Source of the DNA: a virus
Length of the DNA: 25,023 nt
Direction: 5' to 3' (one strand)
Virus record (IMG/VR): IMGVR_UViG_3300043570_001508
Coordinates: 1-25,023 of that record
Part shown: positions 9,108 to 22,824 of the stretch, piece by piece
Layout of the letters: every line of letters starts with the position of its first letter
Numbering within the stretch: the stretch's first letter is position 1
The notes under the pieces: model-generated
What the model was told of the DNA's origin: nothing
Database searches by the model: none
What the model saw: the letters and a program-made list of their open reading frames with translations, nothing else
Position numbers and translations under genes: made by a program

Positions 9108-9138
9108 CAAATATACAAATAACTTTATATAAAACAAA
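9108..9138 (-). promoter_or_regulatory. promoter of the packaging operon (TTTG-N19-TATATTTG)
   Basis: On the minus strand a TTTG at 9138-9135 is followed after exactly 19 bases by TATATTTG at 9115-9108, a full match to the Bacteroidota promoter consensus. The predicted start is near 9101-9104, about 20 bases before the first start codon. The -33 TTTG is the end of the U tract of the upstream terminator, so the two elements overlap. Confidence 0.75.
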
Positions 9139-9179
9139 AAACCCAGGCAGTAGTTCTTGATCAGAGAAACTTTCCTGGG
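9135..9179 (-). terminator. intrinsic terminator of the structured RNA and lysis operon
   Basis: Transcribed on the minus strand: CCCAGG (9179-9174), a 26-base loop that contains a weaker inner hairpin (GUUUCU with AGAAC), then CCTGGG (9147-9142) and a run of six or seven T. It ends both the small RNA starting near 9327 and any read-through from the lysis genes. Confidence 0.75.
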
Positions 9180-9327
9180 GGTAGTAAAGTTATAGACATC
9201 GTCATTTCCCTTACTTAGAAGTCCAAACCTGGGACGCTGTTCTTATGGGAAGCGTGTCTGGCACGTAGTTGGTTGATTACGGGTTCAACCATAAACCTTT
9301 TTAAATCCAAAACCATAAGTAAAGGAC
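9135..9327 (-). ncRNA. structured small RNA of about 190 nt with its own promoter and terminator
   Basis: This stretch has no plausible reading frame and is visibly more GC-rich than its surroundings. It has a TATATTTG promoter box ending five bases before the predicted 5' end and a clear intrinsic terminator at the 3' end. The RNA 5' end (9326-9316) can pair over 11 contiguous bases, with one G-U, with 9217-9207, closing a domain of about 100 nt. Inside are a 6-bp hairpin, GGTTGA/TCAACC (9271-9276 with 9285-9290), and a 5-bp hairpin, ACGCT/AGCGT (9234-9238 with 9251-9255). I do not recognise a known family; it is not a tRNA or an obvious tmRNA. It lies between the lysis cassette and the packaging operon. 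A cis-acting leader, a trans-acting regulator, a 6S-like RNA or a packaging RNA are all open. Confidence 0.65.
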
Positions 9328-9331
9328 GAAA

Positions 9332-9339
9332 CAAATATA
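9332..9339 (-). promoter_or_regulatory. -7 box (TATATTTG) for the structured RNA
   Basis: Minus-strand TATATTTG, a full TAnnTTTG match, lies between the lysozyme stop codon and the structured RNA. A TTTG is present at 9358-9355 but the spacer is only 15 bases, so the -33 element is uncertain. The predicted start is about 9327. Confidence 0.6.
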
Positions 9340-9343
9340 GTTA

Positions 9344-9781
9344 TTATTTCTTTACAAACAGGTCTGCTTCAGCTCTTCTACGTCTTACTAATCCTGGAAG
9401 AACTTTACCACCACCCATTATATAATGGTTAATTAACCAATCATAGATTATCTCATCTGTAGCTTTTTGATTTACTAATCTAAATAAAGCTTGTGAGCTT
9501 CCACAGTTCCAACAGAAAGAAACTAAAGCATCAAATTGGTTTTGGTTTAAAATAACCTTTATGTTTTTGATTACAGTAGCTTCATACTTAGGGAGTAGAC
9601 TTGTGAATAATTCCATTGCTTGAGGCATAGTTATCTTATCCCCCATTTTAACCTTATTACCATTTAGATAATAGGTATTTCCTGCTCCAATTGTAACCAC
9701 TCCAGCAGGACATCTATAAGCGTTTAATTTTACTCCTTCAAATTTAATAATTAAACCTTTACCTGTTTCAGAAGTCTTCAT
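9344..9781 (-). CDS. GH24-type endolysin (phage lysozyme)
   Basis: 145 residues, the usual length of T4/P21-type lysozymes that cleave the N-acetylmuramic acid to N-acetylglucosamine bond in peptidoglycan. The catalytic triad pattern E-8-(D/C)-5-T is visible: Glu15 in KFEG, Cys24 in YRCPAGV and Thr30 in TIGAGNT. The middle residue is Cys, as in the P21 type, rather than Asp. The conserved QFDALVSFCWNCG and LPGLVRRRRAEADLF segments follow. No signal or signal-anchor sequence is present, so release should depend on the holin. It is the last gene of the lysis cassette, 40 bases after the M15 peptidase gene. Confidence 0.92.
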   Translation of the reverse strand: MKTSETGKGLIIKFEGVKLNAYRCPAGVVTIGAGNTYYLNGNKVKMGDKITMPQAMELFTSLLPKYEATVIKNIKVILNQNQFDALVSFCWNCGSSQALFRLVNQKATDEIIYDWLINHYIMGGGKVLPGLVRRRRAEADLFVKK

Positions 9782-17010: not shown

Positions 17011-17610
17011 ATGGAGAGTAAAAAAGAACTTACGCTTAAAGAGAAAAATGCTATAATAAAAGCAAATACAAAAGCGAAAAAACTGAAACAAAAAGGTGTT
17101 CGTGTAACAACTCAAACTGATAACAGAGTGCAAAGGATGCCTATCATAAATGACAATCTTAAATACTTCAGAGTCATAAAGTATTATACACAACGTAAGT
17201 ATAATATCAAAGGACCTGAACTAGATATGCTACTCTTCCTATACTCTGAACCTCTGTTCATGAAGTCAGACTTTTCTAGGTTCAGCGAAATATTCCCATG
17301 GGATAGAAACCGATTTAAGAAAATGGTGGAAGATAATTGGATTCATATATGGAGAAAAGGAATAGGTAAAGAAGCTGACCTGTACGAAATTACCAGGTCA
17401 GCTAAAGTATTAGTCAGTGCCCTCTATAAACAGTTAGAAGGATCAAGACCGTTATCTGTATCTCCAAAATATAATCCAATGTTCGGTGATGAAAAAAGTT
17501 TTGCTGATAAAATGTATGTCAGAGCTATCGAAAATATGAACAAAGATATTATAGAATTAAAGCGACATCTCGTTCCAAGATCAAGCGAAAAACTTGGTCG
17601 GAAATCGTAA
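17011..17610 (+). CDS. winged-helix-like regulator candidate, lone plus-strand gene in the late arm
   Basis: 199 residues. The N-terminus is very Lys-rich (MESKKELTLKEKNAIIKANT), followed by a segment NDNLKYFRVIKYYTQRKYNI and a helical region with PELDMLLFLYSE, FSEIFPWDRNRFKKMVEDNW and IHIWRKG...LYEITRSAKVLVSALYKQL. The last part looks like the recognition helix and wing of a MarR/PadR-type winged helix; this is an assignment by pattern only. It is transcribed against all neighbours from a near-leaderless promoter, and its 3' end overlaps the GroES gene on the other strand by 62 bases. It probably controls the divergent structural operon or itself. Confidence 0.6.
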   Translation: MESKKELTLKEKNAIIKANTKAKKLKQKGVRVTTQTDNRVQRMPIINDNLKYFRVIKYYTQRKYNIKGPELDMLLFLYSEPLFMKSDFSRFSEIFPWDRNRFKKMVEDNWIHIWRKGIGKEADLYEITRSAKVLVSALYKQLEGSRPLSVSPKYNPMFGDEKSFADKMYVRAIENMNKDIIELKRHLVPRSSEKLGRKS

Positions 17611-17815
17611 TGTTATGCCCTTGAATACTATCAAAGACGATTAACGATCCCTCCTTCAAGTCATAACCAACTGTATTGCCCACTTTTACTACGTGGGCAT
17701 TTTTCCATTTATCAGCAGAAATCTTTGCATCAGTAAACTGAAATGTTCCTTTTACTCGCTCAGTCTTCTCAACTGGTACTTCCTTAATCAATATGTAGTT
17801 TCCAATTGCTTCCAT
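17549..17815 (-). CDS. GroES-like co-chaperonin
   Basis: 88 residues, close to the 90-100 usual for Cpn10. The fold order is visible: MEAIGNYILIKEVP as the first strand, a mobile-loop region with KGTFQFTD (about 22-30), a central NAHVVKVGNTVGYDLKEGSLIVF and a closing strand IQGHNITISDQVFRLILERDVALIL. It should cap the GroEL ring encoded directly upstream; its ATG shares one base with the GroEL stop (TAATG), so the two are made together. The C-terminal 62 bases of the gene lie opposite the plus-strand regulator gene, and a plus-strand terminator lies within it. Confidence 0.85.
   Translation of the reverse strand: MEAIGNYILIKEVPVEKTERVKGTFQFTDAKISADKWKNAHVVKVGNTVGYDLKEGSLIVFDSIQGHNITISDQVFRLILERDVALIL
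17678..17704 (+). terminator. intrinsic terminator of the regulator-like gene, embedded in GroES
   Basis: On the plus strand GCCCAC (17678-17683), a nine-base loop and GTGGGC (17693-17698) are followed by ATTTTT. The hairpin starts 67 bases after the stop codon at 17610 and lies wholly within the GroES coding sequence on the other strand. Confidence 0.65.
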
Positions 17816-19389
17816 TACTCTCTAATATTTGATACAACGGCTGCAGTACTCATGATTGTACCTGCAACACTAATTGAATTTTTTAATGCGTTACGTGTGA
17901 CCTTTGTCGCATCGATTATTCCCATCTCATCCATCATACCGAACTCTTTAGTTTTAGAGTTATAGCCAAATCCATTTAGAGGGCTATTATCGACCTTAAA
18001 TTCTATTTCTGAAGGATCAACACCTATGTTAGTTATTATCTTCGTAAATGGAGCGTAAAGTGCCCAACTTAGTATATCAAGAGCTGCTGCTTGATTAATA
18101 TTATCAGGTAAATGTGTTATATCTCTAAGTGCGTTAATCAATGCTACTCCACCACCTGGCAAAATACCTTCCTCCATTGCGGACTTTACAGCAAAAACTG
18201 AGTCTTCAACCCTATCATAGATTTCCTTCTGCTCAATATCACTATTTGCACCTACAAAAATCACCCCAACTCCTCCAGAGATACAAGCAATTCTTTCGCT
18301 AACATTCTTTCTATCTACAAATGAAGTACTGTTTTTTAGTAAATCCTTAAGATCTGAAATATGAGCAGGAACTTTATCTTCAATTCCTTCCATGTCACGA
18401 ACTACAACTGTATAGTCTTTGCTAACTACAATCTTTTTAGCCAATCCCAAATCATCAATAGTGATTCCTTCAAGATTATCTCCAGTCTTCTCGTTGTAGA
18501 ACGTAGCATTTAATGCAATACCTAAGTCAGACATTAAATCATCTTTCAAATATCCGAATCCAGGGGGGATTATATTACAACACTTAAGTCCGTTCTCACG
18601 AATATTTTTGTTTAGTGTAAACAAAGCTTCTGGTGCAAACGTTCCAATAATAAGTATCGACTTATTCACCGACATAATGTGCTGAAGCAGAGGCACTAAT
18701 ACATTAATATCTTTAATCTCTGAGTCAGTTACTAAAATATATGCATCCTCCAACACGCACTCCTGAGTCTTATGATTATTAATCATCACGTTACTCACCC
18801 AACCACGTTCTATCTTGATTCCAGAAGTTACTCTAGTATGAATCTCAGATGATGATGAATCTTCTATCGTCACGTGTTTAACTTTACTGTAAACATCAGC
18901 TACCAATTTTCCTAACTTCGGATCGTTATTTGCTGATATAGTAGCGATATTTAGCAACCTTTTCTTTGTCAGTTTTAATGAAGCTCGCTTTAACGCTGAA
19001 TCAAGCTCTGCAGCATATTCATTTAAGTGTAGAATAATTTCACTCATATTGTACTTAGAATTTTCAAATGATTCAGAAGCTTCTAAGATAGCATTTACCA
19101 AGCATACAGTAGTAGTAGTTCCATCACCTGCAGCGGTTGCTGATCGTTCAGCTGCGGACTTAACCATTTGAATAGCTAAGTTCTCTACCGAGTCCATGAC
19201 ATTTATAGATTTTGCTACGCTGACACCGTCCTTAGATATCTTGAATCCTCCAACTATACTAGGATCTTCAATTAATACAGTCGAACCTCCTGGACCTAGT
19301 GTTGAACACACCGCATCAGAAATAATTTTTATTCCTGACTTTAATTTTGCACGAGCATCTGCTCCGAAATCAATTTTTTTTGCAATCAT
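17815..19389 (-). CDS. phage-encoded GroEL-like chaperonin
   Basis: 524 residues, slightly shorter than the usual ~548 and lacking the C-terminal Gly-Gly-Met tail. The equatorial ATPase motifs are intact: LGPGG near residue 31, SKDGVSVA with Asp54 (equivalent of GroEL Asp52), AGDGTTTT at 87-94 with Asp89 (Asp87), and DRVEDSVFAV with Asp396 (Asp398), followed by EEGILPGGG. The intermediate and apical regions are recognisable but divergent (RGWVSNVMINN; PPGFGYLKDDLMSDL). It should form a folding ring with the adjacent GroES-like protein for viral proteins. The promoter box TACATTTG precedes it by about 22 bases, giving an independent operon. Confidence 0.93.
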   Translation of the reverse strand: MIAKKIDFGADARAKLKSGIKIISDAVCSTLGPGGSTVLIEDPSIVGGFKISKDGVSVAKSINVMDSVENLAIQMVKSAAERSATAAGDGTTTTVCLVNAILEASESFENSKYNMSEIILHLNEYAAELDSALKRASLKLTKKRLLNIATISANNDPKLGKLVADVYSKVKHVTIEDSSSSEIHTRVTSGIKIERGWVSNVMINNHKTQECVLEDAYILVTDSEIKDINVLVPLLQHIMSVNKSILIIGTFAPEALFTLNKNIRENGLKCCNIIPPGFGYLKDDLMSDLGIALNATFYNEKTGDNLEGITIDDLGLAKKIVVSKDYTVVVRDMEGIEDKVPAHISDLKDLLKNSTSFVDRKNVSERIACISGGVGVIFVGANSDIEQKEIYDRVEDSVFAVKSAMEEGILPGGGVALINALRDITHLPDNINQAAALDILSWALYAPFTKIITNIGVDPSEIEFKVDNSPLNGFGYNSKTKEFGMMDEMGIIDATKVTRNALKNSISVAGTIMSTAAVVSNIRE

Positions 19390-21070: not shown

Positions 21071-21119
21071 AAAAAAAAACGAGTGACTTCGGTAATGCAG
21101 TACCTCGGTCAACTCGTTA
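21071..21119 (-). terminator. intrinsic terminator in the leader of the AP2 gene
   Basis: On the minus strand AACGAGT (21118-21112) and GAC (21110-21108) pair with GTC (21087-21085) and ACTCGTT (21084-21078). An inner GGTA/TACC stem (21104-21101 with 21094-21091) holds the loop CTGCAT, and a run of nine T follows. About 14 base pairs in total. It lies between the promoter and the AP2 start codon, so it would act as an attenuator. Confidence 0.7.
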
Positions 21120-21144
21120 AAATTCTTTTAGCCCTGCATGGCAT
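21109..21144 (-). other. possible 11-codon leader peptide before the attenuator
   Basis: A short frame starts at ATG 21144-21142 and reads MPCRAKRILTS, with its stop codon inside the first arm of the terminator hairpin. Ribosomes reaching the stop would cover that arm. There is no Shine-Dalgarno to support initiation, and such a frame can occur by chance, so the call is weak. Confidence 0.2.
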
Positions 21145-21151
21145 ATGAGTG

Positions 21152-21182
21152 CAAATATACAAATACTTTTTTAATTAGCAAG
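21152..21182 (-). promoter_or_regulatory. promoter of the AP2 operon (CTTG-N19-TATATTTG)
   Basis: Minus-strand TATATTTG at 21159-21152 is a full -7 match, and CTTG at 21182-21179 lies 19 bases upstream, 3 of 4 to TTTG. The predicted start is near 21147, giving a leader of about 95 nt that contains the terminator. Confidence 0.6.
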
Positions 21183-21345
21183 AAAAAAAAAGAAAGTTTC
21201 ATCACTAGAAAAAAACTAGGAGAGGAGGAACTTCCATCGTAAGTCAAAGATAAAAAATTATCGGCAGCAAAGTTAAAATAGTGCCAAAGTATAGGTAGTC
21301 AATTTTTACTTTTTATTTTGAGCTGAGAGGAGGAAAATGATGAAA

Positions 21346-21659
21346 TGCTGAGATGTCAACTTTTTCGCTCTATTATGGATTTTTTTTATTTAGGGGTATT
21401 TTTACATATATATACCCCTTTTTATCTCTTTTTTTATTTATTACCTTTTTGACCTTAAAAGAGAGCACTATAACATTCTAAGAATTTTAAAAAAGTTAAT
21501 TTGTTGATTTGTAAATAATTACACCGTGGAGATTTTTTAAACATGCACTAACAACTAAGCATTTCCTCAGCATTTCTTGACACAACTCAGCACAGATTCG
21601 ACTCAGACAGTTTTAAAGTCGTGCTGAGTTATGTTGAGTTGTGCTCAGACAGTGCTGAG
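21346..21659. repeat. TGCTGAG / CTCAGCA repeats
   Basis: The heptamer TGCTGAG occurs on the plus strand at 21346, 21622 and 21653, and in reverse at 21566 and 21586, with near copies at 21632 (TGTTGAG) and 21601 (ACTCAGACAG). CACAACTCAGCAC (21581-21593) forms a long imperfect inverted repeat with GTGCTGAGTTATGTTGAGTTGTG. Candidate protein-binding sites or iterons. Confidence 0.6.
21392..21425 (+). terminator. plus-strand terminator-like hairpin in the control region
   Basis: AGGGGTAT (21392-21399) pairs perfectly with ATACCCCT (21412-21419), and TTTTTATC follows. No gene lies upstream on this strand between 17704 and here, so it either ends an unrecognised plus-strand RNA or insulates the region. 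Confidence 0.5.
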
Positions 21660-21660
21660 T

Positions 21661-21819
21661 TGGGAGTGACGTTTTGAAAGTTTACCACCGTATTTTAGAT
21701 GGTGAGATACATGTGAAATTTAGGTAATAGCGTCCATTTGGCGACTGATCATCGAAAGGGAAAGTGAATCGTTTTGAGGGTGGGGGGTGCCGTTTTGGAA
21801 ATTTCCCGCCAGATTTTTT
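21661..21819 (+). repeat. two diverged direct repeats of about 38 bp
   Basis: The stretch starting TGGGAGTGACGTTTTGAAAG at 21661 and the stretch starting TGGGGGGTGCCGTTTTGGAA at 21781 align over about 38 bases, both continuing TTT-(A/C)CC-(A/G)CC-(G/A)-(T/G)ATTTT. They are 120 bp apart. Confidence 0.45.
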
Positions 21820-21856
21820 GCCTTTTTGTGGTGGGTGGGGGGCGGTGGTGGTGGTG
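21776..21856 (+). repeat. G-rich block with quadruplex potential
   Basis: Two G-rich tracts on the plus strand, GAGGGTGGGGGGTG (21776-21789) and GTGGGTGGGGGGCGGTGG (about 21831-21848) continuing into GGT repeats, stand out in a genome of about one-third GC. Several runs of two or more G at short spacing could form a two- or three-layer quadruplex. Confidence 0.5.
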
Positions 21857-21970
21857 TACGTTTGTCCTTTCGTCGGTGCATACCTCCGCCCTTTGTCGCG
21901 TCCCGTCCTTGCATACCTTCGCGCGTATTGAATACCGTACGCCCTTACTTACTTGCATAGTGAACTATAG

Positions 21971-21994
21971 TACTTACTTACTTACTTACTTACT
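21971..21994 (+). repeat. TACT tetranucleotide repeat, six copies
   Basis: Six perfect tandem TACT units, with a shorter run of the same phase at 21945-21954. A related (ACTA)n run lies at 22334-22351. Such tracts are prone to slippage. Confidence 0.8.
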
Positions 21995-22011
21995 TCGCTA
22001 TGTACATTGAT

Positions 22012-22140
22012 CAACTATCTTTTTAGTTGGTATGTTGTCGTCCTGTCATTCGGTCAACTATCTTTTTAGTTCATATATCGGTCGATCGATCCAACTATCT
22101 TTTTAGTTTGTAGGTTATTCATCCAACTATATTTTTAGTT
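22012..22140 (+). repeat. four palindromic iterons CAACTATCTTTTTAGTT
   Basis: The 17-mer CAACTATCTTTTTAGTT is present at 22012, 22055 and 22092, and with one change (CAACTATATTTTTAGTT) at 22124. Starts are 43, 37 and 32 bases apart, so the spacing shrinks. Each copy has AACTA/TAGTT arms around a six-base T-rich centre. The intervening sequences differ. Likely binding sites for an initiator or regulator, or hairpin-forming sites. Confidence 0.8.
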
Positions 22141-22585
22141 TGATAGTTTACCAGGAAATCGGCTTTTTAAATTTTTGGCCGTATTGTTTAATCATTCAAG
22201 CATATATATATTAGTTTGTTTATTTGTTTATTCGTTAACTAAATTCCTTTGTATTGTTCGTTCGTTTGTTATTGGTGTGTTATATCTGTTTATCATCTCA
22301 CTATCTAAAATCTATTATCTAACTGAATAACCTACTAACTAACTAACTAACAATTAACTGTTTATGTTTATCGTCTTATTATCTGTATTAATTACGTCAT
22401 ATATTTTCAACTAATTTTACAGTAATTAGCCACTTAACTACCTGATTGTTAACTATTTGACTTTTTTACTTTCATTTTTTGCTTATTTGTTCACTTTTGT
22501 ACAAATTAATTCATTTTTTATTTCGTTGATTTTCAACGCTTTACGATTTATTTTCATTTTTTTTTACATTTTCTTTGTTTTTTTT

Positions 22586-22616
22586 ATTGTCTATCAATTA
22601 AGTATACGTATCTTTG
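22586..22616 (+). promoter_or_regulatory. promoter of the rightward small-gene module (ATTG-N19-TATCTTTG)
   Basis: ATTG at 22586-22589 and TATCTTTG at 22609-22616 are 19 bases apart, the same arrangement as the groEL promoter. The predicted start is about 22621, where a GTAGC/GCTAC hairpin (22621-22636) begins, giving a leader of about 200 nt. Confidence 0.55.
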
Positions 22617-22654
22617 TTGTGTAGCAAACGAGCTACTTAATAAAACACACTAAG

Positions 22655-22666
22655 CGACAATTGTCG
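22655..22666. promoter_or_regulatory. 12-bp perfect palindrome CGACAATTGTCG
   Basis: A perfect inverted repeat within the leader of the rightward module, about 35 bases after the predicted transcription start. A candidate operator. Confidence 0.35.
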
Positions 22667-22689
22667 GGGTGTACAGAAATGTAAAGTTC

Positions 22690-22718
22690 TTTGACGTATA
22701 GAAAAAAATTGATATTAT
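22690..22718 (+). promoter_or_regulatory. possible second promoter of the rightward module
   Basis: TTTGACG at 22690-22696 followed after 16 bases by TATTAT (22713-22718) resembles a general -35/-10 promoter (TTGACG-N16-TATTAT). It is only a partial match to the Bacteroidota consensus. Confidence 0.3.
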
Positions 22719-22762
22719 CCGCTACGATGGAATCGGTATGGGAGGGATAAACAAATAAACAA

Positions 22763-22790
22763 GTATGTAGATTGGTGACGGTCTACATAC
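22763..22790 (+). promoter_or_regulatory. 9-bp perfect hairpin in the leader of the first rightward gene
   Basis: GTATGTAGA (22763-22771) and TCTACATAC (22782-22790) form a perfect stem around a ten-base loop, with no T run after it, so it is not a terminator. It lies 34 bases before the preferred start codon. Likely an RNA-stability element or protein-binding site. Confidence 0.5.
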
Positions 22791-22824
22791 TACTAAAATG
22801 AATAATAATTTAAATTTAATTAAT

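Follow-up and report, generated by a model that had tools for sequence, protein, structure and literature searches.

The 25,023-nt stretch of DNA analysed here (the window) contains a segment, positions 9119–9343, that is flanked by a lysozyme-like gene and by the small genes preceding terL and has no open reading frame (ORF) of 60 aa or more. The non-coding nature ascribed to it in an earlier, sequence-only reading was thus borne out. The window represents part of an elemovirus-like podophage genome, and its terminase shares 62% identity with that of MW202828 and 42% with those of Flavobacterium elemo phages; 80 related loci were retrieved from IMG/VR. The lysozyme-like gene (145 aa; 9344–9781, minus strand) lies immediately upstream of the segment, and its relatives, 69–79% identical, mark the recombining cassette. 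Elsewhere in the window, reading of 17549–19389 suggests a GroEL-like gene of 524 aa with a small GroES-like gene behind it, a pair likewise annotated in elemo phages. The leftward and rightward gene blocks are separated by a 1.7-kb stretch without convincing genes (21112–22797), possibly an origin or control region; it contains four spaced inverted repeats resembling (C)AACTATCTTTTTAGTT (about 22015–22145) as well as TTAC units in a row.

The segment is read on the minus strand. A TATATTTG box, which resembles a Bacteroidota-type -7 promoter element, was read directly at 9339–9332, in keeping with the promoter proposed earlier for the segment; it occupies the same place in the related contigs L086 and L113. 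No clear -33 box matching it was seen in the window. A second TATATTTG box, also read directly, is located at 9115–9108 (minus strand), upstream of the gene of 79–91 aa that belongs to the terL operon; in L086 and L092, too, this block comes after the terminator. The intrinsic terminator announced by the same reading is convincing. It spans 9179–9136 (minus strand, read directly) and consists of a CCCAGG/CCUGGG hairpin (9179–9142) with a 26-nt loop, because of which a simple terminator scan missed it, followed by TTTTTTG. The stem is retained in L091 as CCCAAGG/CCTTGGG, both arms having changed together. As expected from that reading, which knew of no matching RNA family, the segment had no match in Rfam at gathering score; an RT-9 match on the opposite strand at a permissive threshold (E = 0.82) was weak and was taken as chance. 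The computed fold of the whole 221-nt segment was only modestly better than those of its shuffles (z = -1.8; 8 of 200).

The two modules of the segment

The segment is identical in contig 3300042297_000074. Contig L086 (3300010885_015520) contains only its first part, followed by a terminator hairpin of its own, while four contigs (L091–L094) contain only the second part, located after an M15 peptidase gene and upstream of a lysozyme gene; L113 (3300042465_004521) contains both. Since the two parts occur alone and joined in close relatives, the segment is a chimera of a module A, its first third (9329–9269), and a module B that includes the terminator (9270–9136, minus strand). Module B, which is RNA-like, is 93–96% identical in L091–L094 and is fused to A in the window/L109 and in L113. 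Searches with blastn found module B in no phage or plasmid record, and relaxed patterns run on phages, plasmids and IMG/VR found it only in the same phage group. Two candidate explanations for B were rejected: a search of its opposite strand for an RNA resembling A, made with R1, the covariance model of module A, and filters off, found none, and its antisense match to the A loop was hardly beyond chance (UAAGUAA appeared in 1.4% of shuffles, and the whole duplex in 103 of 2000).

The sequence-only reading had envisaged one RNA held together by an 11-bp long-range helix. The complementarity is real: positions 9316–9326 in module A and 9207–9217 in module B (minus strand) can form 11 pairs, one of them G-U, and the helix is included in the minimum-energy fold of the whole segment. 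It joins A to B, is hardly beyond chance (shuffling B 2000 times equalled the complementarity in 103 cases), and is not conserved. It is absent wherever a single module is present, as in L086 (A without B) and L091–L094 (B without A), and its formation would break the helices of module A supported by covariation, including P1 (see below). Both of its arms are invariant in the only phages containing both modules, which therefore offer no compensatory changes. The proposal of a free-standing structured RNA gene with a promoter-like box and a terminator is supported, with strong evidence for module A, but as two modules rather than one fold.

The comparison made earlier with a packaging RNA or 6S RNA found no support either. 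No such RNA precedes terL in the relatives of the terminase of the window, and module A is found next to genes that have nothing to do with packaging. No relationship to phi29 pRNA was found, there being no match in the Rfam library and no conservation with packaging genes; nor was one found to 6S RNA (a long hairpin with a central bubble), which gave no Rfam match and from which both the computed fold and the covariation model differ. The gap next to terL in the relatives was tried as a site for the RNA and discarded, as it holds, by reading, a small conserved peptide gene instead. This gene, for a conserved basic peptide of ∼40 aa (...RPG(V)HAKSKTSKLKSSKNY...), lies after the lysis genes in L003 (4183–4336), L022 (4145–4303) and L024 (3282–3440).

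Fold and distribution of module A

Module A consists of a hairpin, P1, followed by a second hairpin, P2, with an H-type pseudoknot. In the window (9329–9269, minus strand), P1 spans 9327–9305, with outer pairs GUCCU/UGGAU (9327–9323/9309–9305), inner pairs ACU/GGU (9320–9318/9314–9312) and a UAU loop. P2 spans 9290–9271, with arms GGUUGA/UCAACC (9290–9285/9276–9271) and loop ACCCGUAA. The 5′ strand of the pseudoknot, GGU (9297–9295), pairs with ACC at 9284–9282. The window thus contains P1, P2 and the pseudoknot with the conserved loops of the family, and scored 72.4 bits with model R1 and 59.8 bits with model R2.

The pairing is supported by covariation. The outer pairs of P1 covary in the phage copies, and its inner ACU/AGU becomes GCC/GGC in GC-rich relatives. 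The stem of P2 is GGUUGA/UCAACC in the window, CGCUGA/UCAGCG in Bacillus phage KLEB27-3 and CCGUUG/CAACGG in L086. In the pseudoknot, a single pair out of three varies, C-G standing in place of U-A in 10 of the 29 sequences. Before the GC-rich relatives were added, 89% of the cells were paired and the covariation score was 0.66, versus 0.25 for shuffled alignments. With them included (29 sequences from cognate and orphan loci), 96% of the cells were paired, 15 of the 20 pairs had changed on both sides, and the score, which includes the pseudoknot pair, was 0.57, versus 0.24 when shuffled and at most 0.11 when slid. A set of 44 distinct rows, of which two were cognate and the others lacked a neighbouring DUF3800 gene, gave 0.55 versus 0.21. 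The pattern used for collecting IMG/VR sequences fixed the loop letters and two P2 letters, no P1 pairs and few P2 pairs; the invariance of the loops is therefore no evidence, and only the paired columns count.

A blastn match in KLEB27-3 and a pattern match in the GC-richer phage L110 led to SPbeta, phi3T, Paenibacillus phages and clostridia. A gapped pattern retrieved 53 IMG/VR contigs, all but one of which exceeded 46 bits with R1. Phage contigs with module A number more than 50 (SPbeta/phi3T, Bacillus and Paenibacillus phages, tRNA clusters), and clostridia have it as well. A terminator is frequently found immediately to one side of it, and it is likewise frequent inside tRNA clusters; in L141 (5493–5556) and L162 (9950–10013) it is located directly 3′ of a tRNA gene. 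In KLEB27-3 it lies in a long non-coding gap, with no DUF3800 gene over the cut-off.

Association of module A with PDC-M04

In two clostridia, module A adjoins a DUF3800 gene and a gene for a partner protein of ∼150 aa. PADLOC names these proteins PDC-M04A and PDC-M04B, respectively (E = 1e-56 to 1e-71), the components of a predicted anti-phage defence system. An independent test of this association started from DUF3800 relatives gathered from IMG/VR by protein search alone, 19 of 23 having the partner (four of these 19 lay in contigs already found through the RNA; 15 were new). Model R1, built before the 19 loci were fetched, matched at the 3′-end of the partner gene in 18 of them (seven weakly). 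Model R2, which was trained on some of the loci counted, matched there in all 19. None of the four DUF3800 loci lacking the partner had module A. Searches for the partner (p150) in clostridia and plasmids identified L196, L197 and the Phyllobacterium plasmid L198, and the RNA adjoins the gene in all three. The PDC-M04 pair of L198 is inside a type I restriction operon, and that of L196 lies, by reading, next to an HsdS-like gene. Tandem double copies of module A were observed beside PDC-M04 genes in L197 (1257–1449) and L218 (5799–5985). In the GC-rich relatives, module A is on the strand opposite to the partner gene.

The system appears infrequently in hosts. In Bacillota searches, PDC-M04B was found in none of 398 genomes with the PADLOC model, in one of 391 in the class of G003 and in four of 207 in its family. 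PDC-M04 is thus rare and the host-side statistics are thin; these searches covered Bacillota and clostridia, while the likely hosts of the window phage are Bacteroidota. DUF3800 has an RNase H fold (PMC10910872). The partner yielded a confident AlphaFold model (pLDDT 88) with no significant PDB match, RelE-, BrnT- and HigB-type toxins being among the insignificant top matches. Pfam PBECR2 matched two of eight partner members, weakly (best E = 0.002), which gives no more than a hint that the partner may be a BECR-type RNase. The paper library searched gave nothing useful on PDC-M04, DUF3800 RNA or SPbeta non-coding RNA, and to our knowledge PADLOC describes only the proteins of PDC-M04.

Profiles of DUF3800 and of the partner both gave no match in the window, and its module A is therefore called an orphan copy. 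Most phage copies are in the same situation: among 30 phage records carrying module A, 26 had no DUF3800 above the cut-off. Some prophages (L157, L171, L175 and L179) keep the complete pair beside it. Since the orphan copies covary, they are under selection. That module A has a conserved fold, is tied to PDC-M04, stands as an orphan in phages and is part of a chimeric A–B segment can, taken jointly, be stated with high confidence.

Possible roles and comparison with known RNAs

These observations suggest, without proving it, that phages use orphan module A to switch PDC-M04 defence off. Transcription of module A by the phage, whether started at a host-type promoter or reached through read-through, would yield a short RNA ending at a terminator. 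This RNA would imitate the cognate RNA, occupy the DUF3800 and partner proteins of the host and keep them inactive. It would be an antitoxin mimic if the cognate RNA restrains the proteins, or a decoy if the cognate RNA is an active cofactor. Module B, fused behind it, would then form the second unit of the cassette and might target a different system. We assign this reading as a whole (an orphan PDC-M04 RNA acting as decoy or antitoxin mimic, with B as a second cassette module) a probability of about 45%. Mimicry by solitary phage copies of a host immune RNA, which has been shown for CRISPR repeats, is the most economical explanation. Counter-defence functions are usually early; against the decoy reading, module A in the window follows late lysis genes, a position that its own promoter-like box, if active, would reconcile with early expression.

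An alternative, unlikely but the best of the remaining ones, is that phage module A does not block the host DUF3800 and partner proteins but recruits them to the advantage of the phage, perhaps in competition with another phage. The same associations are expected, and prophages with the whole system exist; the present evidence does not separate blocking from recruitment in any way. A little less likely still, module A might be a general phage element (an antiterminator of the HK022 put kind, an RNA stabiliser or an sRNA) that PDC-M04 also adopted. Its frequent position beside terminators and its presence in tRNA clusters would agree with this, but its contact with the partner gene in 19 of 19 PDC-M04B loci argues against it, and the opposite orientation in GC-rich relatives misfits a cis-acting element. 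It is improbable that orphan copies are remnants or spare parts of a lost PDC-M04 with no present role: the four prophages with the complete pair would fit, but copies without the genes keep their pairing through double changes across very different phages, which weakens the idea, and KLEB27-3-type phages carry module A in a long non-coding gap with no DUF3800 over the cut-off. Least likely by far is a single 193-nt packaging or 6S-like RNA shaped by the 11-bp helix, which has been refuted as far as a conserved structure is concerned. Only the presence of that helix in the minimum-energy fold is in its favour; against it, A and B are found apart, the helix would disrupt the covarying P1, the terL relatives lack the RNA, Rfam gave no match, and the regular partner of module A is the DUF3800/PDC-M04 gene pair.

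To PDC-M04, a candidate defence system known only by its proteins, these results add an RNA part whose pseudoknot fold is well supported. They also make several phage RNAs, among them that of the Bacillus subtilis model prophage SPbeta, candidate RNA inhibitors. Module A resembles the Rfam families DUF3800-I to -XI, and especially DUF3800-VIII (RF03075), which are short structured RNAs located 3′ of a DUF3800 gene, with orphan copies elsewhere. None of these families matched it at gathering score, and even at the permissive limit of E = 10 no DUF3800 family did. DUF3800-VIII lies at the 3′-end of a single DUF3800 gene of ∼280 aa in six of 11 Bacillota genomes, the rest having none nearby, whereas module A goes with the two-gene PDC-M04 form. 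The DUF3800-VIII RNA directly follows module A in SPbeta, BUCT082 and L144. The two lie in this order within the 1.7-kb yonN–yonK gap, which has no annotated gene, in SPbeta and its kin (L123, 2994–3120; L128; L144). By analogy, the A–B arrangement of the window suggests that phages may string together RNA modules of such systems. A DUF3800-VIII copy without a DUF3800 gene was also observed in a prophage (L232, around 1501–1567), beside a gene that reads as a terminase small subunit.

With PDC-M04 as defined by PADLOC, module A shares its loci, as it adjoined the gene pair in every PDC-M04 locus checked; neither gene accompanies it in the window or for most phage copies. Phage RNA mimics (pseudo-ToxI) are known for type III toxin-antitoxin systems, which module A resembles in being a pseudoknot RNA paired with a small protein, possibly an RNase. 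It differs from them in having no tandem repeat array and an additional DUF3800 protein, and the RNase fold of the partner is weakly indicated. A parallel in terms of strategy is that of the Racr (RNA anti-CRISPRs), solitary phage copies of the repeat RNA of host CRISPR (PMC10651486). Module A likewise occurs alone in phages as the RNA of a candidate immune system, though the proposed target is a DUF3800 system rather than CRISPR-Cas, and the inhibition is inferred. That phages of several bacterial phyla use solitary RNAs of DUF3800 systems, in some cases joined to a second, unrelated RNA module, as a Racr-like counter-defence outside CRISPR is a tentative proposal, to which we give slightly less than even odds; if the orphan RNAs do inhibit, RNA mimicry as counter-defence would not be special to CRISPR.
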